Shown here: positions 35,475 through 53,747 of the stretch, piece after piece | How the letters are laid out: every line of letters starts with the position of its first letter | Position numbering within the stretch: the first letter of the stretch is position 1 | NCBI GenBank assembly: GCA_021390615.1 | Contig: JAJEJU010000024.1 | Coordinates: 1,860,001 to 1,924,000, forward strand | Direction of reading: 5' to 3' | Origin: Rhodanobacteraceae bacterium ZG21-1 | Lineage (GTDB): Bacteria > Pseudomonadota > Gammaproteobacteria > Xanthomonadales > Rhodanobacteraceae | DNA: 64,000 nucleotides | Notes under the pieces: generated by a model | Told to the model about the DNA's origin: nothing | The model's input: the letters and a program-made list of their open reading frames with translations, nothing else | Databases searched by the model: none | Translations under genes and position numbers: made by a program

Positions 35475-35491
35475 ACATTAGATAGGTGAAC

Positions 35492-35517: not shown

Positions 35518-35554
35518 TCCAGTCAGTTACGTCGCGACCACGACAGAGAAACCA

Positions 35555-35863: not shown

Positions 35864-35896
35864 TGCAATCAGCCACTATGGATGGACCTTGACTAT

Positions 35897-35919
35897 TGCC
35901 CGCTTCCGACCCACCGGGC
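35897..35919. repeat. palindromic repeat, degenerate copy 3
   Basis: TGCCCG and CGGGCA arms around a CTTCCGACCCA centre that resembles copies 1 and 2. It follows the frameshifted gene. Confidence 0.5.
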
Positions 35920-35982
35920 ACCTCAGACCAGCATACATAGCCCTAACGCTGCGACTCTTTTAGATAAATACATGGTGCGATA

Positions 35983-36273: not shown

Positions 36274-36577
36274 CCGGCACCTGGGCCATCAGGCGCTCAA
36301 ACGATTGGGGCGGTAGGTTCTTCGTCATAGACGCGGCCGTCACAATGAAATAGCAGCACGGCCCTTAGCAAAGCCGTTGATGCTCGCAACCTATCCGCAT
36401 ATGGCCTGAGCTTGAGAGAAGCACGACACCGCGCCCCAGCCACTAGCTGCAGGTAGTTGGCCCCGCCGAACGACACGAAGCGATATAGTGCCCCCGCGGA
36501 GCAGCTATCGACTCATCTGGCTTATCGGGCTCACCGTCACGAAGGCTGGATCGTCGTTCATAGCAAGGGGGACAAGG

Positions 36578-37090
36578 ATGGCGCGTTTGATCGTTCTGGC
36601 GGTGATGCTTGCCTCGCCGGCATTGCTGTCCTCGGCGCAGGCCCAACAGCAGGCTGATACGGCCATTCCACCGATGCTGGCCGCTAATCCATCTCCTGCC
36701 CCGCCCCACGCGGGGGCGGTCAGATGCCTCAGGCCTACAGGCCTGCGCTACCCCAACGGCGCGCCCGTGATGATGGCCAGTTATGACTGCGTGCCCAGCG
36801 AAAATCTCTCTTACAACTCGCGTCACCTGCCCGTATTTCCACCGCAGGCGATACGTGCCCATCACTCGGGCACCGTCATCACCAAGGCCATGATCTCGAA
36901 GGATGGCATACCGGCATCCGTAACCATCGAGGAGAGCAGCGGTTACCCCGAGCTCGACGAGGCAGCGATCGACGCGGTGAAACAGTGGCACTTCAATCCC
37001 GCCACGAAGAACGGTGTACCGATCGATGGTTTTGCACGCGTTCCTGTGAACTTCCAACTCAACGTTCCACCATCGGCTCCGGGTCACTGA
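36578..37090 (+). CDS. exported TonB C-terminal domain protein (copy 1)
   Basis: The 170-residue product starts with a cleavable signal peptide (ends ALLSSAQAQQ). It ends with a TonB-C-type domain containing GTVITKAMISKDGIPASVTI, EESSGYPELDEAAIDAVKQW and FNPATKNGVPIDGFARVPVNF. It lacks the membrane anchor and Pro-rich spacer of true TonB, so energy transduction is unlikely; it is probably a periplasmic protein. AAGGGGGA precedes the ATG at 36578. Two related proteins follow within 3 kb. Confidence 0.78.
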   Translation: MARLIVLAVMLASPALLSSAQAQQQADTAIPPMLAANPSPAPPHAGAVRCLRPTGLRYPNGAPVMMASYDCVPSENLSYNSRHLPVFPPQAIRAHHSGTVITKAMISKDGIPASVTIEESSGYPELDEAAIDAVKQWHFNPATKNGVPIDGFARVPVNFQLNVPPSAPGH

Positions 37091-37365
37091 TCTGAGAGGG
37101 CACCATCTCAAGACGGCATTCAGATCGACATCGATCATCCGGGCCCTATTCAGTCGCGGCCCCAGGCAGAGGGGCACTGATGTTTCGACGACAATATCCT
37201 CGTATGCATGAAAGGCGAGGGATGGGAGCGTGGGGTGTACGAGGGCACATACGTCATAGCCGTCTAACGCCATGGCTTGCGACTCTCGCGGAAAGCCGCA
37301 AGCCATTTTTAAACGTAGTGCCGACTCGCCATCGCACTGCGCACCACGAATCGAGGGGATTAAAG

Positions 37366-37836
37366 ATGAAGAGATGGAGCATGGCTTCGACCCTATGCGT
37401 AACCATCGCCACGGCCCCAGGCGCACACGCACAGCGCGAATTCCCTGGGCCTGGCTATAACTACTTGCCTGCGATCCCTTCCGCAGACCAGTGCGCGCAA
37501 CTCAAATCCTTCAGAACTCTGTCCAATGGAAGGCATGTCCCGTGGAATCGATGCGCGGAATTGGATTCTTCCTACGCTTCGAAGTATCCACCCAAGCTTC
37601 CCGGTGGCGATAAGGCGGAATCTCATCCTCACGAGGGTGCAGTGATCCTGGTGGTAGCAGTCGAGGCCAACGGATCGTTGTCCGACATCCGCGTCGAAAG
37701 AAGCAGTGGCTACCTCGATCTCGACGTCGCAGCACACAAGGCGGTAGAGCGGTGGAGATTCTTGCCTGCCTACCAAGCTGGAGTACCGGAAAGATCTTAC
37801 GTCCGCGTGCCCGTCACTTTTGAGATTGCGGACTAA
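37366..37836 (+). CDS. exported TonB C-terminal domain protein (copy 2)
   Basis: The 156-residue protein has a signal peptide ending near GAHAQ. Its C-terminal domain has GAVILVVAVEANGSLSDIRV, ERSSGYLDLDVAAHKAVERW and FLPAYQAGVPERSYVRVPVTF, parallel to copy 1. Two Cys (SADQCAQLK and WNRCAELD) in the N-terminal part might form a disulfide. The ATG at 37366 follows GAGGGG at a distance of about 9 bases; the open frame extends further upstream without family similarity. Confidence 0.75.
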   Translation: MKRWSMASTLCVTIATAPGAHAQREFPGPGYNYLPAIPSADQCAQLKSFRTLSNGRHVPWNRCAELDSSYASKYPPKLPGGDKAESHPHEGAVILVVAVEANGSLSDIRVERSSGYLDLDVAAHKAVERWRFLPAYQAGVPERSYVRVPVTFEIAD

Positions 37837-38188
37837 GTCAGAGCCTGCGAAGGAACACCTTCGACGATGCACGACTCTCGAAGGCTCACGAAAACTTCCT
37901 GACTGGCAACCCCCGGGCTCAGACATGGTTCACTGGCTCGATGAGCGACTTCAGGCCTCCCTGCGCCCATGCAGGCAGAGTCGAATCCCGAAGATGCCGT
38001 GTCCTTGGGCAACAAACGGCGAGCCGGCTGTAGGCATGCTCGCCCGCACAGGCCACGTGGCGAACTGCCTCGCACCGGTGATGCCATGGCATCATCGCCC
38101 ACAGCCATTGCTGAGCAGCGCGAAGATTCTTGCCCACTTCAGCACCAAGCAGGGGCTCATACGAACCCGCCTAGGAGGCAGGTAAGCC
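37837..38188. other. gene-free stretch
   Basis: About 350 bases with only weak ORFs lacking motifs. Immediately before the next gene AGGAGG (38173-38178) is a clear ribosome site. Confidence 0.45.
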
Positions 38189-38575
38189 ATGCACCACCAT
38201 CACGGAGGAGATTATGATGGTTATATTCCAGGCGATATCACGCCGATTCCAGCAGCGACACGGGAAACCTGGCTTCATCGCCGGGGCATGATGTGGCGAG
38301 GAGCCAAGGAAGCGTACTGGTGGTCGCCGCCTGATCACAAATGCGGTCACAGACACCGCGAAGGCCTGAGGTTCGACCTCGACATGGGCCTTGAGATCGA
38401 GCGTCTTCAGCGGGTTTTCCCGGGCGACGATTCGGATTGTCGATGCCGCTCCCTGCCCATCTACGAAGAAAATGGTGTCCGGGTCGGCAAGGATCACTTC
38501 GAACGCAATGTCACTATCACGACCCTCTTGATCGGCCTAGCCATCGTGTCGATGGTGATTTTTTTCAGCCGATAA
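38189..38575 (+). CDS. hypothetical tail-anchored protein
   Basis: The 128-residue product begins with a His/Asp/Tyr-rich segment (MHHHHGGDYDGY). A polar region with two Cys (HKCGHRHRE, DCRCRSLP) follows, and a single C-terminal membrane segment TITTLLIGLAIVSMVIFF ends the chain. The arrangement suggests tail anchoring with the N-terminus in the cytoplasm. The His and Cys clusters could bind metal, which is only a guess. AGGAGG lies 10 bases before the ATG. No family is recognised. Confidence 0.58.
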   Translation: MHHHHGGDYDGYIPGDITPIPAATRETWLHRRGMMWRGAKEAYWWSPPDHKCGHRHREGLRFDLDMGLEIERLQRVFPGDDSDCRCRSLPIYEENGVRVGKDHFERNVTITTLLIGLAIVSMVIFFSR

Positions 38576-38724
38576 AGGGGGCTTTGAAAAACCACCGGCC
38601 ACGGCTTTCCGCTCGCCTCGACGCGCGCTGAAGCGCCGTTGGAGTAGCACGTAAGACTTCCTGCACTCTTCGACATCCTGCCAGCCCTGATCGTCGTCGA
38701 CTGCATCGGCCATTGGCGACTGGG

Positions 38725-39033
38725 TCATCCACGCGGAACCAAGGGGCCAAGAAGAGCCAGCAGGCCGACGAATAGTGCAACGGGCACGGCTATTCCAAGC
38801 AGCATCCCGAGGGCGACCCACCCCAGCCCCTTGGCACCTTGCGTGTCGAATCGCCGCGCCAGATAGATCATGCCTGGCAGAAGCGGGGCCAGCCCTGAGG
38901 CAATGGCTTCGACAAGCGCAGGTCTCGCGTTGGCCGGCAGCATCTCCAAACACTGGATAGTGACGATCCAGAGGGGCCAGCCCAGGAGTCCACAACCCGT
39001 GCCAGCTGACATTAATCGGACGGATTGTCTCAT
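38725..39033 (-). CDS. small hydrophobic membrane protein
   Basis: The 102-residue protein has two or three hydrophobic segments (LLGWPLWIVTIQCLEML; the region after ARP; LGMLLGIAVPVALFVGLLAL). It is the only minus-strand gene candidate in this part. No family or partner is recognised. An alternative ATG seven codons downstream is possible because neither start has a good ribosome site. Confidence 0.5.
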   Translation of the reverse strand: MRQSVRLMSAGTGCGLLGWPLWIVTIQCLEMLPANARPALVEAIASGLAPLLPGMIYLARRFDTQGAKGLGWVALGMLLGIAVPVALFVGLLALLGPLVPRG

Positions 39034-39455
39034 GAGCAGACAGCCTCGAGGCGCGCCGCTCCAAGCCGGTACGGCAGATCAAAAGTGATGCGCGGCCGCC
39101 ATGATCGAACTACCGTACGCGCACGCGGCTCATATCGATCTTGGCGCATCGGCAGACCCGCCTGTCTATCCAGTGCGACCTGCACACGATGGCGACAACG
39201 GCATTTGCCTAATGCCCGAATCAGGGATGGAGCACCGCCATGCCGAGCACGCTGCAGTCGCGTTAATCTACGGCAAGGGGAAGTTGCTCGGATCGATAGG
39301 CCATTAAGACGGGGTGTTTCGGCAACCTTCAAATCGACTGCCGGAATGAGGTGCTGCGCCCTATGAGGGCCGGCGCCACTGCAGATTGACGCGCGAGCAA
39401 GATATGTCATGTCGGTCATCCAGCCATCGCTTCCAAACCATGGAGTACGCAGAGT
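39034..39455. other. gene-free stretch
   Basis: About 420 bases in which several overlapping ORFs exist but none has a motif or plausible composition. The 366-codon minus-strand ORF across it also covers two supported plus-strand genes. Confidence 0.4.
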
Positions 39456-39893
39456 ATGAAGATATGGGCAAGCTACCTTTTCCTGCTGTCGATGGTCAGC
39501 CCGGCATTCGGCCAGGACAAGCCCGTCGCCTACAACAACTTGTCGCCGGGCGGCCGCACGGCGCCCGATCAGTTGGTGCACGATGCACTCGACAAGCAGT
39601 ACGACATCGTCGACTTCGAGCTCGCCAAGCACGCCTACACTTCGCCGCGCCCCATCGCAGGGTCCACCCCGCATACCGCGACGGCTGACGACGGAACCGC
39701 CTTGCACGGCCACGTCATGCTGGCTTACGTCGTCACGCTCGACGGCCATGCCGCCTCTCCGACAGTCATCAAATGCACCGAGCCAAAGCTGTGCAGACTG
39801 GCGATAGAGGCAACCCTTACCTGGCGCTTCGATGTCGGCACGCTCGATGGCAAGAAGATAAGCACCGTCGCCCTGCAGGAATTTCAATTCTGA
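39456..39893 (+). CDS. exported protein, divergent TonB-C-like (copy 3)
   Basis: The 145-residue product has a signal peptide (SYLFLLSMVSPAFGQ). Its C-terminal half, HVMLAYVVTLDGHAASPTVI followed by a Cys pair (IKCTEPKLCR) and ATLTWRFDVGTLDGKKI, follows the TonB-C order of strands and the W-x-F element, but more loosely than copies 1 and 2. The relation is thus probable rather than certain. It belongs to the same accessory stretch. Confidence 0.65.
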   Translation: MKIWASYLFLLSMVSPAFGQDKPVAYNNLSPGGRTAPDQLVHDALDKQYDIVDFELAKHAYTSPRPIAGSTPHTATADDGTALHGHVMLAYVVTLDGHAASPTVIKCTEPKLCRLAIEATLTWRFDVGTLDGKKISTVALQEFQF

Positions 39894-39954
39894 TGACTTC
39901 TCTGCGCGAAATGCGTGTGTTTTCGATCCATGACGGACATCGGCGAGATCCAGC

Positions 39955-40332
39955 ATGGCCATGAGACATATACGGATTACCGAAGCTCCCCCTGGCGAAG
40001 CGCCTGCACGTATCCGCGCCGCGTGGGTGAACATAGTCCTTCCCCTCGCGGACATTCCACAAGCCCAGCCCGACGTGTGGATCACGAGGGGTGTGCTCGG
40101 CAAGGATCGCGGTGTATGGGCGCGCATCAAACGGCTATTTGGTATCCCCGTCGTGGAGCAGCCCGAGGTCGGCTATCTGGTGGACACCATCATTGCCGTC
40201 GAGTTGCTGCGCGCACATGCCCCATCGGCGGCTGCATGGTGGGATCGCCATACGCCGCATCTGCTGGTTCCGGGAAGAAAGTTAGTCTTCGCGGCTTCCT
40301 GCTGCGAAGAAGTCGGACACGTTGTGAACTAG
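39955..40332 (+). CDS. hypothetical protein
   Basis: The 125-residue protein is cytosolic by appearance. It starts HIRITEAPPGEAPARIRAAW followed by a VNIVLPLA strand, then GVLGKDRGVWARIKRLFG, and ends with a Cys-Cys (AASCCEEVG). The opening APPGEAP-x-x-I-R-x-A-W resembles a scattered family of unknown function. An ATG two codons downstream is an alternative start. No functional clue from neighbours. Confidence 0.58.
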   Translation: MAMRHIRITEAPPGEAPARIRAAWVNIVLPLADIPQAQPDVWITRGVLGKDRGVWARIKRLFGIPVVEQPEVGYLVDTIIAVELLRAHAPSAAAWWDRHTPHLLVPGRKLVFAASCCEEVGHVVN

Positions 40333-40425
40333 AGGCTCGCCCTGCGCACACTGAGCTGTGCGCCTCGCGGGCCTGGTAGCGGTTTCTCGTTCAAGGCTCC
40401 GCCGGCAGTCCTCGGCAATCCGCAC

Positions 40426-40635
40426 TCAGGCGTAGTTCGCCAGCTCGATGGTCGCTTCCAGGCAGCTCATCTCGACGCGTGCGGGCCGGCCGAGAGCATG
40501 CTCCTCGCGCGCCGCCTGGCGCGCCTGCTTGATCGCCGATCCGAGCTTCAGGCCCTGCAGGATCGTCGCCCCGCCCCTCATGACCCGCCAGAGCCCCGAA
40601 GGCGACTCGACGAGCAGGAAGGTCACCGCGTTCAT
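40426..40635 (-). CDS. small hypothetical protein
   Basis: The 69-residue product (from the ATG ending at 40635, preceded by GGAGAGG) reads MNAVTFLLVESPSGLWRVMR at its start. A helical region rich in Ala, Arg and Gln (KQARQAAREEHA) and a closing strand CLEATIELANYA follow. It resembles compact DUF-type proteins of about 70 residues but no family is assigned. An upstream in-frame ATG would add 23 less plausible residues. Confidence 0.5.
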   Translation of the reverse strand: MNAVTFLLVESPSGLWRVMRGGATILQGLKLGSAIKQARQAAREEHALGRPARVEMSCLEATIELANYA

Positions 40636-41064
40636 GTTGCCTCTCCATGTGGGGAATCGCCGGAGTATCGGCCGCGCCTCCATGAGAGGCGTCGCCTGAT
40701 TCACCGGACGACGGCATCATCCATGCAGCCGTGTCCGCATGAAATCAGGCATGACTGACCGGCCGTGTAGGACAAATCCGACACAACGGTCCAGGCAGGG
40801 CCGACTGCCTGCAGCGCGGACTGAGGACGTAGGGACGAGAGCTATGCGGGCATCGCATCAAGGGCAGAGATTCCGTTCTGACAAACAGCCATTGAAGCCA
40901 GTCCTCGATCAAGCGCCTACTCGACTGGTTTCCAATAAAACTTCGCCAGTGATCCATTGCTGTCTACGGCCGCCATCTGCCAGCTTTTCCGCGTGGAGAA
41001 CGCCTCATATATCGCTATCTGTGCCTGCTACACTCGCCACGAGCCGAACTTAGGGGATTGAGGG
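40636..41064. other. gene-free stretch
   Basis: About 430 bases between divergent small genes; no coding or RNA feature seen. Confidence 0.4.
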
Positions 41065-41397
41065 ATGAACAAGGCACTCGTATCCGGATTATTCGGGCTG
41101 GCGCTGGCTGGAGCCGCACTCGCTGCCTGGGGGCAGGCCAGTCCTTCCACCACCATCACGGCCGGCGATCTCTCTGCCACCAACGGCCAGGGCATGACGC
41201 CCGAACAGACCAATGACGCCCTCGCGGATGCCCAGCAGGGGGACGCCGATGCCAACAAGATCAAGCTCGTGGAATGCCTGGGTACCAAGATGTTCCAGGA
41301 TCCGCAGCCCGAAGGGCATCCGCCGAGCAAAGAAGAATGCCTGAGCCTGCTCAAAGCCAAGGGCATTCCTCCCAGCAGCTACGTGCCGTTCAAGTAA
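41065..41397 (+). CDS. small exported protein
   Basis: The 110-residue product has a signal peptide (LFGLALAGAALAAWGQA). The mature part is acidic, with a Gly/Thr-rich start and two Cys (LVECLGTK and KEECLSLLK) about 25 residues apart that may form a disulfide. The start follows a GGGATTGAGGG site. No family recognised. A GC hairpin lies just after the stop. Confidence 0.62.
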   Translation: MNKALVSGLFGLALAGAALAAWGQASPSTTITAGDLSATNGQGMTPEQTNDALADAQQGDADANKIKLVECLGTKMFQDPQPEGHPPSKEECLSLLKAKGIPPSSYVPFK

Positions 41398-41415
41398 GCA
41401 GCAGCTGACGCCTGT

Positions 41416-41436
41416 CGGCCGCCTGCTTGGCGGCCG
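41416..41436 (+). terminator. possible terminator hairpin
   Basis: CGGCCGCC and GGCGGCCG (8 bp) with loop TGCTT, 19 bases after the stop of the small exported gene, followed by a short CGTTTCT. Confidence 0.45.
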
Positions 41437-41551
41437 CGTTTCTGTGTGGCTGGCTTAGCCTGATTTCGAGGGCCCAGATCTCGGCGCGACATGCACCAGG
41501 GCAAACGGAGCAGGCAGTGCGCAGGGCTTGGGACAAGCTTAGGTGACAAGC

Positions 41552-41935
41552 ATGCATATTGACGAGAACGTCTTAACCATCGCGGCCGCAGCCGCAGAAC
41601 TCGGCCTGCCGGTGGTACTGCTACTGCTTATCAGGTTCTCCCGCGCAGCCAAGCCCAAGGCTGTGGTGATGCTCGGTGCCGTATGCCCTCTTTTGTGTTT
41701 CTACGTGTTTGCGACCATCGAATATCTGATATCGCCGAAGGACCCAGGCGCCATCTTCGCGTTCTTCGCCATGTGGGTGATGAGCTTTGCAGTCTATGCC
41801 GCAGCCGCCCTGCTCGGCCTGATGATCGCCTTCTTCAGAACGCCGACAAAGACCTACGCGCGCTTCATCGTGGGGCTGGCATCCCTGCCGCTCTCTTTGG
41901 GGCTGCTTGAGCTTGCGGCCCGGCTTTATCGCTGA
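41552..41935 (+). CDS. small polytopic membrane protein
   Basis: The 127-residue product has four hydrophobic segments: LGLPVVLLLLIRF, MLGAVCPLLCFYVFATIEYL, FAFFAMWVMSFAVYAAAALL and a final FIVGLASLPLSLGLLELA. Loops are short. The ATG at 41552 was preferred over a GTG three codons earlier. Function unknown. Confidence 0.58.
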   Translation: MHIDENVLTIAAAAAELGLPVVLLLLIRFSRAAKPKAVVMLGAVCPLLCFYVFATIEYLISPKDPGAIFAFFAMWVMSFAVYAAAALLGLMIAFFRTPTKTYARFIVGLASLPLSLGLLELAARLYR

Positions 41936-42035
41936 CGAAGTTCCCACGAAGCAGATCAGCTTTCGATTCGGGACAAACGCTTCGCTGCCTGCTTGCCAGC
42001 ATCCAAGTTGAGCAAACCCACCAAGAGAAACTCGA

Positions 42036-42557
42036 ATGGCTGCTCTTTCGATTGCCTTGCTCGCCATCGGCCTGACGCCGCCGCCACAGGTGCCCTCTCT
42101 GCCGCCACCGCCGGCCTTGGCAGGGTCGCCGCCGCAGGCATGCACGGTCGAGCCGCTGCGCCTGGACATCGAGCGCATCCGCCATGCGAAGGAAGTTCAG
42201 GCCGTCCAGGCAGACCCCGACATGTTGCACGCGACGATTCTTCTCACCGACGGCGATGTGCTCAAAGCCACCAGCCTCGGCTGTTCGGCGCGCGCTATCG
42301 AGGTGCGGCTCTGGACGAAAGCCGGCATGTACGTCGACCCGCCCCTGCTGCAAAAAGCCGCTTTCGTGACAGGCCTGCTGTTGCCCAGCGACAAGGCCTT
42401 GCCGCTGCAGCGAGCCATGGCGCAGGCGAAGTTCGATTCGCCTTATGGCAAGGTCCGGCATATCAGCCATGAACGAAGCTATCTGATCCACATCACCTCG
42501 GAACCGTTGAACGGCTGGGGCTACTCGATGATGGACATCGCCTTGCTCAATCTTTAG
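42036..42557 (+). CDS. hypothetical exported protein
   Basis: The 173-residue product starts with a short hydrophobic segment and a Pro-rich stretch (PPPQVPSLPPPPALAG), probably a signal peptide plus linker. It has two Cys (QACTVEP, LGCSARA) and mostly strand-like segments (ATILLTDGDVLKATS, AIEVRLWTK). No known family. It follows the membrane protein by 100 bases on the same strand. Confidence 0.55.
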   Translation: MAALSIALLAIGLTPPPQVPSLPPPPALAGSPPQACTVEPLRLDIERIRHAKEVQAVQADPDMLHATILLTDGDVLKATSLGCSARAIEVRLWTKAGMYVDPPLLQKAAFVTGLLLPSDKALPLQRAMAQAKFDSPYGKVRHISHERSYLIHITSEPLNGWGYSMMDIALLNL

Positions 42558-42970
42558 CCGTCCATAGCGGCACCTGACGGACGCTCGGATACGGCCATCA
42601 TTCAAGTCCGCCTATCGCGGCGGCCCTCGCGCTACTGCGGACGGGCTTCCTGCCTTACATCCGTTCAAAGACAGACAAGGCAAGCCCGACCCAGCCGCTT
42701 TGCTCGGCCGATGAATGATCCGAGCGGCCGCTCAGACACCGAATGCTTCGATACCTTTCATTTGAAAGCGCGCGTGCATGCCTTGCGCTTTCCTGCCCTT
42801 GAGCCGCGGTCGCGGCACAAGGAAAATGCTGTGGCTTTTCTAGCCTTTGCCCGCCAAAATCCGAACGGCGTACCAAGGTCGATACCGAGCAACGCCATGA
42901 ATTGGCCGCCCGAAAGAATCGATCGCTCAGATGCAATACACTAGAGCGGTTAATAAGCCAAGCTGCACAT
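42558..42970. other. gene-free stretch
   Basis: About 410 bases with weak ORFs only; nothing recognised. Confidence 0.4.
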
Positions 42971-43216
42971 ATGACCGCACGCAAGCATGACGATCTATGG
43001 CGCCAGTTCCAGAGTGAATTGGCCAGCCTCGAAGCAAAGCCTTCGCCTCCTCTTACGCACGAAGAAATCCAGAAGCTCAACCGGGATCAGCAACTGGTAC
43101 TCGCCAAGACCGAGTTTCGCGATATGCAGCGCAAATACGGTCTGTCGATCGCCGAGATTCTGGCCTGCTTTCCCGAGGAAGAAAGCATTTCCTATCTCCA
43201 ATCCCTGATGCGTTAA
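42971..43216 (+). CDS. small helical hypothetical protein
   Basis: The 81-residue product is mostly helical and charged: ARKHDDLWRQFQSELASLEA, then THEEIQKLNRDQQLVLAKTE and MQRKYGLSIAEILACFPEEE. The last part could be a helix-turn-helix-like pair, but no DNA-binding family is recognised. The ATG at 42971 was chosen because the earlier open frame has no similar composition. Confidence 0.52.
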   Translation: MTARKHDDLWRQFQSELASLEAKPSPPLTHEEIQKLNRDQQLVLAKTEFRDMQRKYGLSIAEILACFPEEESISYLQSLMR

Positions 43217-43420
43217 TCCACGCGGCACTCTGACCTGGCCAGCGGGCGGAGCTCGATTCGCTCGTCTTCTTGGTGCTACAGCTCGCATGGAGAGCGCCTC
43301 GTCACATCGAGCTGGTTTGCATGCCGGCCAGCGTCATGAGCTCCCATATGGAGGCGCATCGGCGGCGTATTCCGATGCAAACAGCCAAACAGCAAGGACA
43401 AGCCACATAGGATGGTTCTC

Positions 43421-44143
43421 ATGGAGTACTGCTTCAGGATCGACAAGGAAAGTTGCCAGGCACTCACTGATCTCATCACGGCGTCCAAAACCATGCGCTT
43501 GGCGCGTACGATCGAAGCCCGCCAGCAGCGCATCGGGGCTTTCCAGAAAAAGGCCTTGTCGATATTGCTGCTGTTCGCGCCGGTGCTGGCCGCATGGTTC
43601 GCGACACATGGATCGTCCGCCACACACGGCAAGCCGGAAGACATGATCGGTGGCGTGATCGCTTTCGCCATGATCACGCTCGTCTACCTCTGGCTCTGGT
43701 GGCGATACCGAGCGGCCTTCATCGGCTTTCTGTTCGAGCACAGACGCCGATGGGGGCTGCGCTGGAGCCGACCTCTGGTGGCAGCCGCCCATCGGCGCAT
43801 TGGCCGTCTCATCCAGAAGGGCGTGGCGCGCCAGGAAGGTCTGCATCATTGGTCGCTTTCGCCGGAGGCCCTGGTGCTGCGTGGACCCAGCGGGAAAGCG
43901 GTCACCTTGCCCTGGCAGGGCATCGCAAAAGTGCAGGACATCGGCGACTTCTACCAATTGGCCACTCCCACGCAGAAACGCTTGGGCCGGGCCTATCTGC
44001 TCGCTAAGGAAAGTACCGAGATGGATGCCCAGGCCTATCGCGAAGGCATACGACAGCTGCTGGCGCTGATTCCGGCGCAGGCTCATATGCAGCCGTTGTC
44101 GAGGTCTTCGGCGCCCGGGCCCGAACTTCCGGACCAAGCGTAA
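43421..44143 (+). CDS. YcxB-like membrane protein
   Basis: The 240-residue product begins MEYCFRIDKESCQAL and has two adjacent membrane segments (LSILLLFAPVLAAWFATHG and MIGGVIAFAMITLVYLWLWW). A C-terminal soluble part has LSPEALVLRGPSGKAVTLPW and IAKVQDIGDFYQL, typical of the YcxB-like family (PH-like domain). AGGATGG precedes the ATG at 43421; an ATG three codons earlier is an alternative. Function unknown. Confidence 0.65.
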   Translation: MEYCFRIDKESCQALTDLITASKTMRLARTIEARQQRIGAFQKKALSILLLFAPVLAAWFATHGSSATHGKPEDMIGGVIAFAMITLVYLWLWWRYRAAFIGFLFEHRRRWGLRWSRPLVAAAHRRIGRLIQKGVARQEGLHHWSLSPEALVLRGPSGKAVTLPWQGIAKVQDIGDFYQLATPTQKRLGRAYLLAKESTEMDAQAYREGIRQLLALIPAQAHMQPLSRSSAPGPELPDQA

Positions 44144-45800: not shown

Positions 45801-47153
45801 ATGCAAGCGCCCGATGACAGTGCGCCGCCGCCGCGGCATATCCTCACTCCCAGCACGCTCAACCGACTGGTGCGCGATCTGCTGGAGGACGCCCTGCCCC
45901 TGGTGTGGATCGAGGGCGAGCTGTCGAACGTGGCGCGTCCCGCCTCCGGCCATCTCTACTTCACCCTGAAGGACAGCGGCGCGCAGGTGCGCTGCGCGAT
46001 GTTCCGCCCCAAGAGCGGCTGGCTGAAATTCAAGCCGGCCGACGGCATGCAGGTGCTGGTCCGCGCACGGGTCGGCCTGTACGAGCCGCGCGGCGAATTC
46101 CAGCTGGTGGCGGAGCACATGGAGCCGGCGGGCGAAGGCGCCCTGCAGCGCGAGTTCGAGCAGCTCAAGCGGCGGCTCGAGGCCGAAGGCCTGTTCGAGG
46201 CTTCGCGCAAGCGCGCATTGCCGCGCTATCCGCAGCGAATCGGCGTGGTCACTTCGCCGACCGGCGCCGCCATCCGCGACGTGCTCAGCGTGCTGCGCCG
46301 GCGCTGGCCCCTGGCCGAGGTCGAGGTGCTGCCGGTGCCGGTGCAGGGCCGCGAAGCGCCGCCGGCGATCGTCGCCATGCTGCGCAAGGCCGCGGCCGTC
46401 GGCCGCTACGACGTGCTGTTGCTGACTCGCGGCGGTGGTTCGCTGGAAGACCTGATGGCCTTCAACGACGAGACGCTGGCGCGGACGATCCATGCCAGCG
46501 CGGTGCCGGTGGTCGCTGCGATCGGGCACGAAGTCGATTTCAGCATCGCCGATTTCGTAGCCGACCTGCGCGCGCCGACGCCTTCCGCGGCAGCCGAGCT
46601 GCTGGTTCCCGATCGCACGGCCAGCCTGCATCAGCTGCGCCAATTGCGCCAGCGCCTCGCCACGCTGCAGCAGCGCCGGCTGCAGTCGCTGGTGCAGCGT
46701 AGTGACCACCTGCTCGCGCGCCTGCAGGCGCAGCGTCCGCAGGCGCGCCTGCTGCGCGACCGCGAACGCCTGCGGCATCTGCGGCAACGATTGGATGCGA
46801 GCTGGCGCGAGTACGACCGGCATCGCCAGCTGCGGCTCGAACGCCTGCAGCGCCGCCTGCTCGGCCAGCACCCGCAGCAGCGACTGACCTTGCTGCAGCG
46901 ACGCCTCGACGAGCAACAGCAACGCCTGCGTCGCGCCATGACCGGCTTGCTGGAGCATCGGCGCCTGGTGCTGCAGCAGAGCGCCCGCGCCCTGCACGCG
47001 ATCAGCCCGCTGGCCACGCTGGAGCGCGGCTACGCCATCTTGTTCGATGCCGAGGGCCGCGTGCTGCGTTCTCGCGACGCGGCAGCCGTCGGCGACGCGG
47101 TCACCGCCCGGCTGGCCGATGGCGAACTCACCTTGCGCATCGAAGATCGCTGA
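45801..47153 (+). CDS. xseA: exodeoxyribonuclease VII large subunit
   Basis: XseA forms, with XseB, a nuclease that degrades single-stranded DNA. The 450-residue length is normal. The N-terminal OB fold contains LPLVWIEGELSNVARPASGHLYFTL-like sequence split around residues 33-57 (WIEGELSN, GHLYFTLKD). The catalytic domain has GVVTSPTGAAIRDVL, LLTRGGGSLEDLMAFND and PVVAAIGHEVDFSIADFVAD. A long Gln/Arg-rich coiled coil at about 275-395 and the closing RGYAILFD follow. No xseB is nearby. Confidence 0.97.
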   Translation: MQAPDDSAPPPRHILTPSTLNRLVRDLLEDALPLVWIEGELSNVARPASGHLYFTLKDSGAQVRCAMFRPKSGWLKFKPADGMQVLVRARVGLYEPRGEFQLVAEHMEPAGEGALQREFEQLKRRLEAEGLFEASRKRALPRYPQRIGVVTSPTGAAIRDVLSVLRRRWPLAEVEVLPVPVQGREAPPAIVAMLRKAAAVGRYDVLLLTRGGGSLEDLMAFNDETLARTIHASAVPVVAAIGHEVDFSIADFVADLRAPTPSAAAELLVPDRTASLHQLRQLRQRLATLQQRRLQSLVQRSDHLLARLQAQRPQARLLRDRERLRHLRQRLDASWREYDRHRQLRLERLQRRLLGQHPQQRLTLLQRRLDEQQQRLRRAMTGLLEHRRLVLQQSARALHAISPLATLERGYAILFDAEGRVLRSRDAAAVGDAVTARLADGELTLRIEDR

Positions 47154-47177: not shown

Positions 47178-50075
47178 CTACGCTCGATGCGGAAGCGGAC
47201 CGGCGGACAGGCTCATCACCGACGGCGTACCGATCGGATCGGCCAGCCGGAGGCAGCCGTAGGCGATGCCCGCAATGCCCACCATCAGGCCCAGCGGTTC
47301 CTGCGCGATCGATGCGCCGCCGCAGCGCCAACCCGCACGCGCCTGCTCCAGCACGCCCTGGCCGAGCCGGCGCGCCTTGGCCAGCGCATCGGCATCCTGC
47401 GTCTGCACCGCATGCTGCAGCAGCAGATCCAGATTGCCCATCTGGCCGTGACACAGCGAATGGCCTTCCGTCATGCCCTGCTCGCGCGTGGTCGTCAGGC
47501 AATGCCGCAGCTCGTCGTGCCAGCGCGCGTCGCGCGTCGCTTCGGGCCACAGCAAGTGCGCCAAGCCGACGCCCGGAGCGCCGTGGCACCAGGAGCACGG
47601 GTCTTCATCGTCGCCGTCGCCGAGCTCCTCGGCGCGGTCGTACCAGCGACGGCTGCGGGCGGCAAACGCGGCGCGCGCATGGCGCAGCGCCTCCCGCGCC
47701 AGTTCCAGGCAAGCGGCGTCCTGAACCAGCTGCGCATAGCTCGCCAAGGCTGCGCCGATGCCCGCCGTGCCGTGCGCAAATCCGCTCAGGCCGCCATGTT
47801 CGGTTGCGGCGACGCCAACCCAGCAGGCGCCGTCGACGTGACGTTGCGCAGTCGCGGCGAGCCGTTCGGCGCAGGCCGTAGCCGCAGCCAGCACGTCATC
47901 GCTCGGGCGATGGCGCTGCAATTGCAGCAGCACCAGCAGGCAACCCGCGGAGCCGCCGATCAGATCGAACTCGTGATCCTCGCCGATGCGTGCGGCCAGT
48001 GTCGGCAGCCAGCCCAACGCCTCGTCGATCAAGGCTTCGCGTCGCCAGCGCAAGCCGAGCAAGAGCAGGACGTACATCCATCCGCTGAGTCCATCAAAGG
48101 CGCCGATCGAGCTCAAGGCCTTGGGATCGTCGCGCAGCATGCGCCGGCACGAAGCCAGCGCAGCCTCCGCAGCAAGCGCGAAGCGTCCCATCCCTTCGTG
48201 TCGCCCAAGCTCGGCGAACAGCAGGGCGATGCCGGGCAAGCCTTCGTAGAGCGCGCTGCCCATCGCCGCCATCGAAGAATTTTCGTCCTCGCGATATTCC
48301 GGCTGGAACAGCAGCAGGCCATGCCGGTCATGGAACGACAGCCGCAGCAGATCGTCGCCCAGCGCCGCGGCCGTGTCGATGAAGGAAGCTCCCCGGTAGG
48401 GCCGGAACGCCGAGGCCAGCATGCTGTCCGGTGGCGCCGCCTCGCCCGCGCTGTGCTTCGCAGCGGCAAGCCTGTCGCATTCCAGCGCCTGCACCAGGGC
48501 ATAGCGCTGGCGGCGCAGGTCGCGCATGGACATGCGGCGGACGCGGCGCTGCGCCTCCGCCATGCCCGACAGCTGGCACAGGCCTTCGACCACATGGCCG
48601 TCGACATCGTGGATGTCGGCGCCATCGACGCGCGCCAGGAAACGCGGCACGTCGCCGCGCTGCATGGCTTCGCGCTCGTACTTCTGGCTGCGCCGCAGGA
48701 AGGCCCACTCGCGACCGCCCAGCTCGAGCTTGTCCAGCAAGGCCTCGCGCTCCATTGCAGAACGCAAGTATTGCGGATGCGACATCGCGTCGAGCAGGCG
48801 CGCGTAGATCTGCGTCGAGCGCAGCACCGTGCGGGTTTCCAGCGGCGCGAACGGTGCCAGCAGGCCATGCTCCGTGCATAGCGCGGGCTTCAGGCGCAGC
48901 AGGCCGCGATAGGTGGACTCGAAGCCCTCGACGATCCCGGCCGCATGACCGGTGGAAGGTATGGGCCGCCCGTCGACCAGCCTCGGCACGTTCGCCTCCG
49001 GCCGGATCACCGCATCCGCCGGCGCCAGGCGCAGCTCGTCGGTGCCGGCGCCGGCGGCCAGGCGCGTGCGATAGCGATGCTCGGCCCAGGCCAGTCCGCT
49101 GACGTCCCAGGCATCCACGCTCAGCTGCCCCGGCAACAGGCCGGAGACCAGGATCGACGGCGCATACGGCACGCCGAGCGGATCGTCTTCTTCGTGCCGC
49201 TTGATCCAGGGCTGCAGCACGGTCTCCAGATCGATCAGCACCGGGTATTCGCCGCAGGCGATGAGGTTCTCCAGATGCAGATCGGTGCAGTTGAGCGCAT
49301 AGGCGATCGCCACCAGGCCGCCGTAGCGCCGGTAGTAGCGGGCGGCCGCCGCCTCGTCCGCCACCGCGGCGTGCTCGACCCAACCGGCGTAGCCGTAGGC
49401 GCCGCAGTCCAGCGTCACCGTCGCCCGCTGCAGCGGCTCCACGCCGCGTTCGGCCAACGCATCGATGAATCGCGCGAAAGCCACGTCCATCGCCAGCGAA
49501 CGCGGCTTGTACAGCAGGCGTGCGCCCTCGAAGTCGAGCTTGACCACGCTGCCGCCGTGATCGTGCCGGTCGCCCTGGCCCATGTCGAAGCCTGCCAGCC
49601 GGGCAGACTGCGAGGACTGCGGCAACAAGCTCACCAGGTTCGAGTAATCGGCCTCGATCCGCTGCAGGCATTGCGCGAGAAAGCCTTCGGTCTGCGTGGC
49701 CTGCCGCACGATGTCGCCGCGCAGCAGCGGATAGCGCGCATCGATGACGGCGCGGCCCGCGGCGCTGTCGATCCAGTCGATGAATTCCAGCAGGCGCCGC
49801 TCCGGCGTTGCTTCCTGCAAGCGCTGCTGGTGCCGCGCAATCGCCAGCTCCAGCAACAGCGCACGCACGCTCATCGACAACGCCGGCCCGGCGAAGGCCG
49901 CATGCAGGCTGCGTTCCAATGAACCGATGTCGAAACGATGGGGCGCCCGCCGCGCGGCTTCCGCCCATTGTCGCAATGCACGCTCGCGCATGGGCGCGAA
50001 CAGCGGCTCAGCCCAGCGCAGCAGCGGCTTGAACGGCGCGCCGCTCGGACGCTCTTCGGTTTCGCCCCATGCCAT
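47178..50075 (-). CDS. lanM: class II lanthipeptide synthetase LanM
   Basis: LanM enzymes dehydrate Ser/Thr in a precursor peptide and cyclise the products onto Cys. The 965-residue protein has both halves. The dehydratase (DUF4135) includes VKLDFEGARLLYKPRSL with Lys190, CTDLHLENLIACG and VLIDLETVLQPW. The LanC-like cyclase includes GLSGFAHGTAGIGAAL and the zinc ligands Cys830 in SWCHGAPGVG and Cys875-His876 in SLCHGQMGN. It lies downstream of four precursor genes on the same strand, with a terminator-like hairpin 109 bases upstream in the gap. The ATG was preferred because GGGAG lies about 12 bases before it. Ring pattern and product are unknown. Confidence 0.95.
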   Translation of the reverse strand: MAWGETEERPSGAPFKPLLRWAEPLFAPMRERALRQWAEAARRAPHRFDIGSLERSLHAAFAGPALSMSVRALLLELAIARHQQRLQEATPERRLLEFIDWIDSAAGRAVIDARYPLLRGDIVRQATQTEGFLAQCLQRIEADYSNLVSLLPQSSQSARLAGFDMGQGDRHDHGGSVVKLDFEGARLLYKPRSLAMDVAFARFIDALAERGVEPLQRATVTLDCGAYGYAGWVEHAAVADEAAAARYYRRYGGLVAIAYALNCTDLHLENLIACGEYPVLIDLETVLQPWIKRHEEDDPLGVPYAPSILVSGLLPGQLSVDAWDVSGLAWAEHRYRTRLAAGAGTDELRLAPADAVIRPEANVPRLVDGRPIPSTGHAAGIVEGFESTYRGLLRLKPALCTEHGLLAPFAPLETRTVLRSTQIYARLLDAMSHPQYLRSAMEREALLDKLELGGREWAFLRRSQKYEREAMQRGDVPRFLARVDGADIHDVDGHVVEGLCQLSGMAEAQRRVRRMSMRDLRRQRYALVQALECDRLAAAKHSAGEAAPPDSMLASAFRPYRGASFIDTAAALGDDLLRLSFHDRHGLLLFQPEYREDENSSMAAMGSALYEGLPGIALLFAELGRHEGMGRFALAAEAALASCRRMLRDDPKALSSIGAFDGLSGWMYVLLLLGLRWRREALIDEALGWLPTLAARIGEDHEFDLIGGSAGCLLVLLQLQRHRPSDDVLAAATACAERLAATAQRHVDGACWVGVAATEHGGLSGFAHGTAGIGAALASYAQLVQDAACLELAREALRHARAAFAARSRRWYDRAEELGDGDDEDPCSWCHGAPGVGLAHLLWPEATRDARWHDELRHCLTTTREQGMTEGHSLCHGQMGNLDLLLQHAVQTQDADALAKARRLGQGVLEQARAGWRCGGASIAQEPLGLMVGIAGIAYGCLRLADPIGTPSVMSLSAGPLPHRA

Positions 50076-50094
50076 GACGTTTCGCTGCTCCCAT

Positions 50095-50126
50095 CAAAAA
50101 CGGGCTGCCCTTTCGGAGCAGCCCGT
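50095..50126 (-). terminator. terminator or attenuator between precursor 1 and lanM
   Basis: Perfect 9-bp arms ACGGGCTGC and GCAGCCCGT around a 9-base loop. On the minus strand TTTTTG follows. Its position between lanA1 and lanM suggests that most transcripts end here and a minority read through into the synthetase gene. Confidence 0.82.
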
Positions 50127-50184
50127 CACTGCCGTGAGACGACGGCGCCCGGGCACGCTCATGCCCGCAACGCCGGCCACCGGA

Positions 50185-50349
50185 TCAGCCGCAGGAAGCG
50201 GTAATGGTCCGGGAAGTCAGGATGGTCTGATGGCTGGCCATCAGGTCGGACTTGTCCACCAGCTTGTCGTCGCCGAGATCCACGCCGCCGATGCTCTCGT
50301 GCATCAGCCGGTCGAAGGTATCCGCCGAAATATCGTTATTCGCACCCAT
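50185..50349 (-). CDS. lanA1: lanthipeptide precursor peptide 1
   Basis: The 54-residue peptide has a leader ending near residue 33 with the shared pattern T-F-D-R-L-M-x-E-S-I-G-G-V-D-L-G-D and LVDK. The C-terminal part contains SHQTILTSRTITASCG: Ser39, Thr42, Thr45, Ser46, Thr48, Thr50, Ser52 and the single Cys53. Thus at most one thioether ring is possible, with other Ser/Thr available for dehydration. GGAG stands about 8 bases before the ATG. It is the precursor nearest lanM. The gene name is assigned here by order, not from a database. Confidence 0.88.
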   Translation of the reverse strand: MGANNDISADTFDRLMHESIGGVDLGDDKLVDKSDLMASHQTILTSRTITASCG

Positions 50350-50424
50350 GATTGATTTCTCCGTCGTGCTCGATGCAGGCCACCAGGCAAATCACCTGGC
50401 GACCTGCGGGAAAGCCGCAAGAGG

Positions 50425-50442
50425 AGCTACCTTTCGGTAGCT
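50425..50442 (-). terminator. hairpin after precursor 2
   Basis: AGCTACC and GGTAGCT (7 bp, loop TTTC) in the gap between precursors 2 and 1. It is flanked by GAGG/CCTC that could lengthen the stem. The T tract is weak, so it may be an attenuator rather than a strong terminator. Confidence 0.5.
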
Positions 50443-50676
50443 TCCCCTCGCGACACCGGACTGGACTCGGCAACCATCCATCCGACCTGCCTGCCTTGTG
50501 CAGGCGCATCAACGCGATCCAAACCGGCGGCCCGCGGGCTGCCATCGCGTCGACCCGTCCGCAATCGCCGAAGTCGACGAAACGACGCTGTTCATTCGAT
50601 CGGAGACCACCGTGCTTGCATGCATCCACGGACATCACAGTCTCTCGTGCTCATGAACGAAGCCGTCGTGGGCGGC

Positions 50677-50835
50677 TCAGCAGAGGCCGAAGGTCGGCAG
50701 CACCGTGGTGGTGGGTTGAGTGTGGGCAGCCGTCATCTTGTCGACAAGCTTGTGGTCGGCGACATCGACATGGCCAATGCTTTCGTCGATCAGCTGATCG
50801 AAGGCTTCCTGCGAGATTTCCAGATTCGTGTGCAT
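50677..50835 (-). CDS. lanA2: lanthipeptide precursor peptide 2
   Basis: The 52-residue peptide starts MHTNLEISQEAFDQLIDESI and keeps the leader pattern to LVDK at residues 30-33. The core contains HTQPTTTVLPTFGLC with five Thr after His38 and one C-terminal Cys52. It shares PTTTV with precursor 4. CGGAG lies about 7 bases before the ATG. A promoter-like element common to precursor 4 lies 104 bases upstream. Confidence 0.9.
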   Translation of the reverse strand: MHTNLEISQEAFDQLIDESIGHVDVADHKLVDKMTAAHTQPTTTVLPTFGLC

Positions 50836-50938
50836 GAGATTCTCCGGGTAGTGAAGAGTTCATCGATCGGATATCGGGCGATTGGTCTGGCACGGATCGA
50901 CGCATTCGCCCATATGCGTCGACCTCAGGCCGCCGCCG

Positions 50939-50967
50939 GTTTTAGCACAGCGATTTCGATTGGAAAA
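50939..50967 (-). promoter_or_regulatory. conserved upstream element of precursor 2
   Basis: On the minus strand TTTTCC (50967-50962), 17 bases, then TAAAAC (50944-50939) embedded in CTGTGCTAAAAC. The same block, CTGTGCTAGAAC, lies at 51685-51674 upstream of precursor 4. The -10-like box is 104 bases before the start codon. Confidence 0.6.
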
Positions 50968-51120
50968 CATCTCGAAGATGCTGCGCCGCGCAAGCCACAG
51001 CCATCACACGCGCACGACGCATACGCGAACGATCTGGACGTCTACACACCGGCGACGCCGAAAATGCGCAATGCGTGACGAGCTATGCAGTGCAGCTGTT
51101 TGCTCGATCACGTAAGCGCT

Positions 51121-51156
51121 GAAAAAGCGCGGGCTGCCGCATCGGGCAGCCCGCGC
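51121..51156 (-). terminator. rho-independent terminator after precursor 3
   Basis: Perfect 12-bp arms GCGCGGGCTGCC and GGCAGCCCGCGC with a 6-base loop, then TTTTTC on the minus strand. It lies 20 bases after the stop of precursor 3. The stem resembles that between lanA1 and lanM. Confidence 0.9.
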
Positions 51157-51175
51157 CGGCAAGCATCCCGTGCCC

Positions 51176-51346
51176 TCAGGCAAGGCAAAGGCACATGCTG
51201 TGCACGCAGGATCGATAGCACGAATTTGCCGTGGCCAGGCGACCGGATCTATCCACCAGCTCGGCATCGCCGAGGTCGATGCTGCCGATATTTTCGCGCA
51301 GCAGACGGTCGAAGACTTCTTGTTCGATTTCCAGATTCACCGGCAT
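51176..51346 (-). CDS. lanA3: lanthipeptide precursor peptide 3
   Basis: The 56-residue peptide starts MPVNLEIEQEVFDRLLRENI and has the leader pattern through LVDR at residues 30-33. The core, ATANSCYRSCVHSMCLCLA, holds four Cys (43, 47, 52, 54) with Thr39, Ser42, Ser46 and Ser50 as possible partners, so up to four rings could form. This is the most Cys-rich of the four. AGGGAG precedes the ATG. It is 61 bases from the stop of precursor 4. Confidence 0.9.
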   Translation of the reverse strand: MPVNLEIEQEVFDRLLRENIGSIDLGDAELVDRSGRLATANSCYRSCVHSMCLCLA

Positions 51347-51370
51347 GACACACTCCCTCATGCAAGACCA

Positions 51371-51396
51371 GAAAAGAGCGGCTCCGAAGGAGCCGC
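51371..51396 (-). terminator. terminator-like hairpin after precursor 4
   Basis: Perfect 8-bp arms GCGGCTCC and GGAGCCGC with loop GAA, then TCTTTTC on the minus strand. It separates precursor 4 from precursor 3 and may limit read-through. Confidence 0.72.
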
Positions 51397-51407
51397 GGCG
51401 TACGCCA

Positions 51408-51569
51408 TCAGCAATCGAAAGTCCGATTGACGGTGGTGGTGGGACAGGCCGAAGCCACCGAATACGGCGTCTTGTCGACCAATCGGTCATCGCCGATATC
51501 GGCCTTGCCGATGCTCTCGTCGATCAGGCGATCGAGCAGTTCCTGGGAAATGCCTAGACTCGTGGGCAT
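51408..51569 (-). CDS. lanA4: lanthipeptide precursor peptide 4
   Basis: The 53-residue peptide starts MPTSLGISQELLDRLIDESI and has the leader pattern GKADIGDDRLVDK at residues 21-33. The core contains TPYSVASACPTTTVNRTFDC with two Cys (42 and 53) and Thr44-46 and Thr50. The second half is similar to precursor 2 (PTTTV, TF-x-C). CGGAGG lies 7 bases before the ATG. It is the first gene of the series in transcription order. Confidence 0.9.
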   Translation of the reverse strand: MPTSLGISQELLDRLIDESIGKADIGDDRLVDKTPYSVASACPTTTVNRTFDC

Positions 51570-52316: not shown

Positions 52317-53747
52317 ATGCTCAAGAAGCATTACCCCTATTACCTCGCCAACCAGCCGCAGACCTCGAAAGCGAGCATGGATGTGCTCGACAAGTACAGC
52401 GGCAAGGTCGCCACGCGCGTGGCAGTGCCGAACGCCAAGGCGGTCGAAAAAGCCATCGCCGCGGCGGTCAATGCGGCGGCGCCGATGCGCGCCTTCAAGC
52501 CGTGGGCGCGCCAGGCGGTGCTGCAGCATTGTGCCGCGCGCTTCGAACAGCGTCGGGACGAACTGGCCTACGCGCTGTGCGTCGAGGCCGGCAAGCCGAT
52601 CAAGGACGCCGCCGGCGAGGTGACCCGACTGATCGAAACCTTCCGCATCGCGGCCGAGGAAGCCGTGCGCGTCAACGGCGAAACCATCAACCTCGAGCTG
52701 GCCGGACGGCTGGACGGCTATCGCGGCTATACGCGCCGCGTGCCGCTGGGGCCGGTGTCGTTCATCACGCCGTTCAACTTCCCGTTGAACCTGGTCGCGC
52801 ACAAGGTCGCGCCGGCGATCGCCGCGGGCTGCCCCTTCGTGTTGAAGCCGGCCGAGCGCACGCCGATCGGCGCGCTCATCATCGGCGAGGTGCTGGCCGA
52901 AACCGACCTGCCCCGCGGCGCCTTCTCGGTGCTGCCCCTGCTCGGCGCGCAATCCACCGCGCTGGTCGAAGACGCGCGCTTCAAGCTGCTGTCATTCACC
53001 GGCGGCCAGATCGGCTGGGATCTGAAGACGCGTGCCGGCCACAAGAAGGTCACCCTGGAACTGGGCGGCAACGCGGCCTGCATCGTCGACGCCGACCAGG
53101 AGCCGCATCTCGATCGCGTGGTCGAGCGGCTGGTCTTCGGCGCCTTCTACCAGTCCGGCCAGAGCTGCATCAGCGTACAGCGCATCATCGCGCACGAGGC
53201 CATCTACGACGCGCTGAAAAAGCGCCTGGTGGCGGCGGTGAAGAAGCTCAAGGCCGGCGATCCCAAGCGCAAGGACACCTTCCTCGGCCCGATGATCGAC
53301 GAAGCCGCCGCCGAACGCCTGCACGGCTGGATCGAAGAGGCGCGCCGAGCCGGCGGCAAGCTGCTGTGCGGCGGCAAGCGCCGCGGCGCCATGCTCGAAG
53401 CTACCTTGATGGAAGACGTGCCCACGCAGGCCAAGGTCAATCGCCTCGAGGTGTTCGGCCCGTTCGCCCTGCTCGCGCGCTATCGCGATTTCGACCAGGC
53501 AATCGACATGGTCAACGATTCCGACTTCGGCCTGCAGGCCGGCATCTTCACCGACAGCCTGCAGCACGCGATGCGCGCGTGGAACGAACTCGACCAGGGC
53601 GGCGTGGTGGTCAACGACGTACCCAGCTTCCGCGTGGACAACATGCCGTATGGCGGCGTGAAGCTCTCGGGCGTGGGCAAGGAAGGTGTGCGTTACGCGA
53701 TCGAGGACATGACCGAGATCCGCCTGATGGTGATGCGGGAAAGCTGA
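52317..53747 (+). CDS. aldehyde dehydrogenase family protein
   Basis: The 476-residue enzyme belongs to the NAD(P)-dependent aldehyde dehydrogenase superfamily. It has the cofactor region FITPFNFPLNLVAHKVAPAI, LLSFTGG, the general base Glu248 in LELGG, catalytic Cys284 in GQSCISVQR and the closing EVFGPF region with NDSDFGLQAGIFTD. Substrate specificity (for example succinate semialdehyde or lactaldehyde) cannot be read from the motifs. GGAG lies before the ATG. It has no operon partner here. Confidence 0.93.
   Translation: MLKKHYPYYLANQPQTSKASMDVLDKYSGKVATRVAVPNAKAVEKAIAAAVNAAAPMRAFKPWARQAVLQHCAARFEQRRDELAYALCVEAGKPIKDAAGEVTRLIETFRIAAEEAVRVNGETINLELAGRLDGYRGYTRRVPLGPVSFITPFNFPLNLVAHKVAPAIAAGCPFVLKPAERTPIGALIIGEVLAETDLPRGAFSVLPLLGAQSTALVEDARFKLLSFTGGQIGWDLKTRAGHKKVTLELGGNAACIVDADQEPHLDRVVERLVFGAFYQSGQSCISVQRIIAHEAIYDALKKRLVAAVKKLKAGDPKRKDTFLGPMIDEAAAERLHGWIEEARRAGGKLLCGGKRRGAMLEATLMEDVPTQAKVNRLEVFGPFALLARYRDFDQAIDMVNDSDFGLQAGIFTDSLQHAMRAWNELDQGGVVVNDVPSFRVDNMPYGGVKLSGVGKEGVRYAIEDMTEIRLMVMRES

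Follow-up and report, generated by a model that had tools for sequence, protein, structure and literature searches.

The window analyzed here is a stretch of 64,000 nucleotides (nt) from the genome of Rhodanobacteraceae bacterium ZG21-1 (contig JAJEJU010000024.1, positions 1,860,001 to 1,924,000). An initial annotation, made from the letters alone, had proposed a class II lanthipeptide locus in it: a lanM gene preceded on its own strand by four short precursor genes. On re-reading the sequence we found all five genes on the minus strand where they had been placed, and at the level of sequence this observation is confirmed. The lanM gene (47178..50075) encodes a class II lanthipeptide synthetase of 965 residues. 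The precursor genes are A1 (51408..51569, 53 residues, tail TPYSVASACPTTTVNRTFDC), A2 (51176..51346, 56 residues, tail SGRLATANSCYRSCVHSMCLCLA), A3 (50677..50835, 52 residues, tail MTAAHTQPTTTVLPTFGLC) and A4 (50185..50349, 54 residues, tail SDLMASHQTILTSRTITASCG). Their predicted ribosome sites are present as well: GGAG precedes the ATG of A1 to A4 by 6, 6, 6 and 9 nt and that of lanM by 12 nt. Three of the four had been described as missing from a naive list of open reading frames (ORFs), which fits a cutoff of 60 residues, as those three have 52 to 54. A2 is listed solely inside an ORF of 104 residues with an earlier start.

LanM matches the model TIGR03897 at 677 bits (3e-203; cutoff 304) and covers nearly the whole length of DUF4135 (PF13575; 303 bits, 4e-90) and LANC_like (PF05147; 213 bits, 6e-63). 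It therefore contains both an N-terminal dehydratase and a C-terminal LanC-like cyclase. The closest solved structures to a two-row profile are LicM2 (6st5; 2.3e-102) and CylM (2.8e-45), and every active-site position aligned with these two is present in the window enzyme. The proposed zinc ligands Cys830, Cys875 and His876 fall on the zinc motifs of LicM2 and occur in all 35 aligned LanMs, as do D169, H171, K190, D265, H267, N270, D282, E284, R419 and T421. We take this second group to be the dehydratase residues, and the roles of the individual residues are likewise presumed. A PADLOC search for anti-phage defense gave no match to LanM. A plasmid origin was considered and rejected: at E ≤ 1e-20 LanM has matches in 98 plasmid records, none of which reaches 60% identity, and the eight listed have 29–32%.

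The four peptides share a leader, D.L..ESIG..DLGDDKLVDK. All three leader motifs pointed out beforehand are found in all four, and 12 of the 13 invariant columns of their alignment lie in the leader. To set this against chance, a hidden Markov model of the leader, built from 11 precursors from outside the window, was run on the window's 1,167 stop-to-stop ORFs of 22 residues or more. The top four hits are exactly A1 (54.9 bits), A4 (52.6), A3 (50.9) and A2 (45.7); the fifth reaches 3.2 bits, and the best scores in five mononucleotide-shuffled windows are 3.4–4.7. An alignment of A1 to A4 searched against the whole 5.52 Mb genome returned only those four at E ≤ 1. The genes are copies in tandem that have since diverged; of the four 116-nt copies, three are 61–72% identical to the reference one. 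All lie beside lanM in the same module and join the leader to a core bearing Ser/Thr and Cys.

How widely is this arrangement kept? Of 197 genomes of the family, 38, the window's own included, encode a LanM at E ≤ 1e-30. A close one occurs only in Fulvimonas sp. R45 (G040, assigned to Rhodanobacteraceae by NCBI), at 65% identity, and the next best have 27–34%; members of the clade described below are thus found in 2 of the 197. Among 398 genomes sampled from the order and 395 from a sister family, ten more have a clade LanM (G412 with two copies), and an outgroup, G497, was found there as well. None appeared at E ≤ 1e-90 in samples of 368 other genomes of the class and 397 of the phylum. A contig search with a single LanM protein found nothing, and one with two LanMs found one locus, that of Fulvimonas. 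In a maximum-likelihood tree of 36 LanM rows, the window and Fulvimonas enzymes are joined (100/100) inside a clade of 13 (100/99), to which G497 is sister (100/100). How deep the outgroup joins lie is uncertain because of long branches (G179, G298, G294, G012 and G497), about which the tree program warned.

A profile of A1 to A4 finds two precursors in Fulvimonas, and a profile of these six finds one beside each of eleven sister-family lanM genes, which a rebuilt leader profile confirms. In total, 17 precursors lie beside the 13 clade LanMs in 12 genomes. That of G600 is weak (28.9 bits, without the usual leader start), and for the distant LanMs of G298 and G294 no precursors were recognized. 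The initial annotation had named absence of the short ORFs beside lanM in related genomes as a ground for its refutation; since the same leader family adjoins orthologous lanM genes there, the proposal withstands this sequence-based test. Database searches, also proposed then, bore out LanM with strong family matches but gave the peptides no credible model. In Pfam and NCBIfam we scanned 11 of the 17 precursors, namely the window four, which drew only matches far below cutoff, and seven others, two of them one residue short; most of the other six are near-identical to scanned ones. By these sequence comparisons it is a real and intact lanthipeptide precursor family that has no Pfam or NCBIfam model and a LanM clade of its own, in a well-known kind of pathway.

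Two relationships to other leaders were rejected. The window precursors have no PF19740 (DUF6229) match at E ≤ 1, the four PF19740 places in the window genome all lie elsewhere than at this locus, and the four DUF6229 precursors there score −0.4 to −2.4 with the leader profile. The leader also resembles, by eye, the double-glycine leader of G497, yet that peptide scores −0.8. Among 2,000 shuffles of it, not all of which were reported, 681 score as well; we therefore claim no homology.

The claim of four divergent precursors holds in that all four are genuine, but their cores are not simply divergent. A1 and A3 are alike in having PTTTV..TF and, close to the end, a Cys; A2 is Fulvimonas-like. 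Two core types are common to the window and Fulvimonas: CYRSC.H..CLC.A, represented in the window by A2, and a Thr-rich TTTV type with Cys at or near its end, comprising A1, A3 and Fulvimonas precursor P0002. The core of A4 stands apart. Other cores in the clade include CWRTCIFCD, CYRSCLHCD, CVYTSCHNC.. and RVPWTPRWTCIA. Every tail has at least one Cys and at least two Ser/Thr, as read from 16 listed tails, the 17th (G661) being equal to that of G424. Compared codon by codon with Fulvimonas precursor P0001, A2 keeps 14 of its last 21 residues, seven of them through changed, synonymous codons, and 16 of its first 33, three of them synonymously. The CYRSC.H..CLC.A core is therefore at least as constrained as the leader.

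Behind the precursor genes, on the same strand, lie hairpins. That after A1 (51378..51396) is terminator-like, with an 8-bp stem and a T-rich tail. Those after A2 (51126..51157, 13 bp) and after A4, just before lanM (50099..50127), share the stem GGGCTGC/GCAGCCC and also have T-rich tails. The hairpin after A3 (50425..50442) is a weak case, a perfect stem of 7 bp lying 234 nt downstream. Up to 100 nt behind each stop codon (260 for A3) were searched and compared with dinucleotide shuffles. At 13 of the 17 precursors the perfect stem is reached by at most 2% of shuffles. The near-identical G424, G414 and G661 fail this test (P 0.56–0.78) because an A-C mismatch breaks their long stem; the A3 stem is not above shuffles (P 0.38), and a hand-chosen stretch of 61 nt there folds with z −4.4. 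Folding of the whole 90 nt downstream gives a less distinct signal than the stem search does (z −0.4 to −3.9 for 16 precursors, mononucleotide shuffles).

Of the 17 precursors, 10 are followed by the exact stem GGGCTGC/GCAGCCC. As controls we used whole-genome stem counts and arm swapping. The window genome has five such places, two of them at this locus, G647 has one (at its clade locus), G424 three (one at its clade locus) and Fulvimonas, whose stems differ, none; a reversed control pattern has 0, 3, 3 and 2 places in the same four genomes. By this control the stem is not enriched genome-wide, and its location is the unusual part: the window holds two against 0.07 expected. Among 134 fetched loci, 23 have the stem with a loop of 3–10 nt, 22 of them views of clade loci. 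The other (L035 637-654, genome G031) lies upstream of a lanM of the other group, which may point to a broader use of this hairpin among the order's lanthipeptide loci. For covariation, 12 hairpins were aligned by hand, leaving out A3 and four near-duplicates. Of the 48 outer pairs, four per hairpin, 39 are complementary; with the arms swapped the mean is 25.7, and 1 of 20,000 trials attains 39. For the seven GGGCTGC hairpins alone the count is 23 of 28, a value that 72 of 20,000 swaps attain. These frequencies are not strict probabilities, as the sequences are related.

T-rich tails follow the hairpins of A1, A2, A4 and both G412 loci and are missing in G424, G654 and G647, so not all of the hairpins are ordinary terminators. 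A simple terminator scan (5 sites against 2.7 expected here, 2 against 0.8 in Fulvimonas) is, with such counts, no evidence on its own. Sigma-70-like promoters were found in neither the present locus nor that of Fulvimonas. Hairpins or weak terminators behind lanA are known from classical lantibiotic operons.

In the window and in Fulvimonas the module lies between xseA, the exonuclease VII large subunit gene (45801..47153, plus strand, convergent with lanM; PF02601, 1.5e-105), and an aldehyde dehydrogenase gene (52317..53747, plus strand; PF00171, 1.7e-136). We searched 59 relatives and obtained the xseA flank for 30, including these two genomes. In 11 of the 28 others, no more than 1.5 kb separates xseA from the start of the dehydrogenase gene. 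Longer stretches from seven genomes place it within 2.8 kb in five; four of these are new, bringing the total to 15 of 28. These longer stretches were also searched for lanM and for the leader, and none of them has either (an eighth contig ended early). The module was thus either inserted here or lost repeatedly.

In other genera the neighbors differ: DsbB and L17, AdoHcyase and MTHFR, IF-1, a LacI regulator, ankyrin repeats, an S15 peptidase, a cupin. Neighboring genes were called by a simple home-made method; 20 neighbors of seven loci were scanned, and by blastp six further loci have neighbors in common with the window or the scanned loci. Only lanA and lanM are constant across the clade, and there is no transporter among the scanned neighbors. 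In G654 (L074 6921-8858) and G574 (L075 6687-8816) only, the gene immediately before lanA is the one for the S15 (X-Pro dipeptidyl-peptidase) enzyme, a possible leader or product protease there.

C39 peptidase matches occur in 12 of 13 genomes searched; for the 13 clade loci, each such match is on a different contig or at a distance of over 100 kb. In Fulvimonas (99% complete) none was found at E ≤ 1e-5. GG, GA and GS are scattered, with no common position at the leader end for a double-glycine-type site, so the locus is not of the class II kind that pairs LanT with a double-glycine leader. No immunity gene was recognized beside it. The outgroup G497 (L080) has a conventional layout, with a double-glycine-leader precursor, LanM, HlyD-like genes recognized by eye and a C39 ABC transporter whose gene lies 2.8 kb behind lanM. 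One study describes HlyD and LanT as highly conserved in its proteobacterial and cyanobacterial subclades (PMC10027976).

The window genome has three more lanM genes (G000:C17:1026266-1028965, C11:51144-53804 and C17:926189-928858; loci L041 to L043), each adjoining DUF6229 precursors, the C11 gene two of them. Their products are 27–28% identical to the window LanM and belong to a separate group of 18 in the tree (100/100); in place of WCHG, the C11 enzyme has WCNG and the third WCGG. Their contigs also lack a C39 gene, so its absence is not unique to the clade. A LanC-like stretch in a frame of 794 residues (G000:C17:1364769-1365863; L005, L044), matching only query residues 603–962 (E 5e-27), is perhaps a class III/IV synthetase or another LanC protein. 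Elsewhere in the window, directly behind a tRNA-Thr (33981-34056), G+C content falls from about 0.70 to 0.55–0.62 for 10 kb (34000-44000). This stretch consists mostly of short ORFs, and inspection by eye showed no integrase; it is a candidate for an old island. Close together within it are the genes of three small proteins of 145–218 residues with TonB C-terminal domains (36488-37090, 37180-37836 and 39456-39893).

The sequence shows the enzyme family, its active-site residues, the leader family, its conservation and the hairpins. Given these, we consider it highly likely that this is a compact class II lanthipeptide locus in which one LanM would modify four leader-guided precursors; the enzyme very probably builds ring-bearing peptides from the four adjacent precursors. 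The shared leader would bind LanM and guide modification. LanM would phosphorylate and then eliminate Ser and Thr in the C-terminal parts of the precursors, and Cys would add to the dehydrated residues, yielding (methyl)lanthionine thioether rings, a chemistry we propose because it follows from the LanM family. The precursors would have arisen by duplication and include two older core types, those of CYRSC.H..CLC.A and TTTV. The intergenic hairpins probably limit read-through or else shield the message upstream of them, and precursor would thereby exceed enzyme. Leader removal and export, if they happen, would depend on functions encoded elsewhere.

Several points weigh against this picture. 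Constraint on A2 appears uneven, since over the whole gene 25 codons change the residue relative to its Fulvimonas counterpart and 11 are synonymous. A3 and A4 have one Cys each and therefore could form at most one ring apiece. The leaders end in no consistent cleavage site, and neither the neighbor scans nor the C39 search revealed a dedicated export gene at the locus. We infer dehydration, ring formation and export, and likewise the part played by the hairpins and a function in antagonism or signaling.

Because two core types are common to the window and Fulvimonas, a two-peptide system has to be considered, in which CYRSC and TTTV peptides would act as alpha and beta partners made by one LanM, with A3 and perhaps A4 as later TTTV copies. 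Both genomes do pair a CYRSC-type precursor with at least one of TTTV type, and roseocin and cytolysin are precedents with one LanM and two precursors (PMC10027976). As here, one LanM goes with more than one precursor, in roseocin with a shared leader and unlike cores (PMC10027976), but the window locus has no adjacent LanT and those systems belong to other phyla. The eleven sister-family loci have one precursor each by the leader profile, A4 fits the TTTV type poorly, and any synergy of the two core types would be conjectural. We regard this as conceivable but rather doubtful.

Only tentatively would we go further and see a distinct, LanT-independent family of the Xanthomonadales/Lysobacterales, whose products might stay active within the cell or be exported by a route not yet described, while housekeeping proteases would remove the leaders and a conserved RNA hairpin would set the dose. 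The lack of a consistent double-glycine site, the constancy of lanA and lanM alone and the lack of a C39 match in Fulvimonas are its basis.

The initial annotation read one LanM with several unlike substrates as a substrate-tolerant arrangement. Taken to its end, this would make the locus a prochlorosin-like generator of diversity, with a broadly promiscuous LanM and a growing library of unlike cores. Four diverged tandem precursors with one enzyme, the difference of A1, A3 and A4 from A2, and cores in the clade as varied as CYRSCLHCD, CVYTSCHNCRE and RVPWTPRWTCIA would suit it, and the prochlorosin and SyncM systems likewise combine several precursors, a common leader and one LanM. However, ProcM and SyncM have a CCG zinc motif (PMC10027976) and that group has Nif11-type precursors (PMC10783134), whereas the window enzyme has CHG, as do all 13 clade members, and its leaders match no Pfam or NCBIfam model. 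CHG has been tied to comparatively limited promiscuity, although certain cyanobacterial CHG enzymes are suspected of similar tolerance in the same study (PMC10027976). Moreover, the window genome has no more precursors of this leader family elsewhere, other clade loci have one or two (the sister-family loci one each), and the A2 core is kept across genera. Broad promiscuity is thus unlikely, and substrate tolerance, given the CHG motif, is unproven: four genes with one enzyme raise the question of promiscuity, and the motif favors a moderate tolerance over one like that of ProcM. Finally, a relic that was acquired, lost its transporter and no longer makes an exported product would suit the missing C39 gene and the presence of clade LanMs in so few family genomes, but is very improbable, as each of the 13 clade LanMs occupies a single open frame (two of the tallied inner stops were checked and fall outside the gene, in G436 upstream of the start and in G647 as its own stop), active-site residues are complete, part of the core conservation runs through synonymous codons and the whole clade shares the transporter-less form.

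Lanthipeptides had been called rarely described from this bacterial group. This is right insofar as two products, from Dyella and Pseudomonas, were presented only in 2022 as the first characterized gammaproteobacterial lanthipeptides, in a study that proposed the name rhodanocins (PMC9576775). It does not hold otherwise, given LanM in 38 of 197 family genomes, the rhodanocins characterized from Dyella (PMC9576775), and 72 class II clusters in Lysobacter, where 21 of 27 unique precursors are DUF6229 (PMC11451712). The rhodanocin/DUF6229 (PF19740) systems of Rhodanobacteraceae and Lysobacter likewise use a class II LanM in the same bacterial order (PMC9576775, PMC11451712). The six Lysobacter precursors outside DUF6229 may include single-precursor loci of the present clade (PMC11451712). 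In the library searched, no paper joins lanthipeptides with Fulvimonas. Among the matches listed for lanthipeptides of Xanthomonadaceae, Xanthomonadales and Lysobacter there is no sign of the window precursor family, nor is there any in passages of PMC7268733 and PMC11667668.

What makes the locus interesting is its four substrates, the lack of an adjacent LanT and the conserved junction hairpin. A profile of the leader would allow genome mining to reach further members that short-ORF annotation passes over. The clade offers a compact enzyme with four predicted natural substrates, along with comparisons across genera, and a test case for Gram-negative lanthipeptide export without an adjacent LanT.

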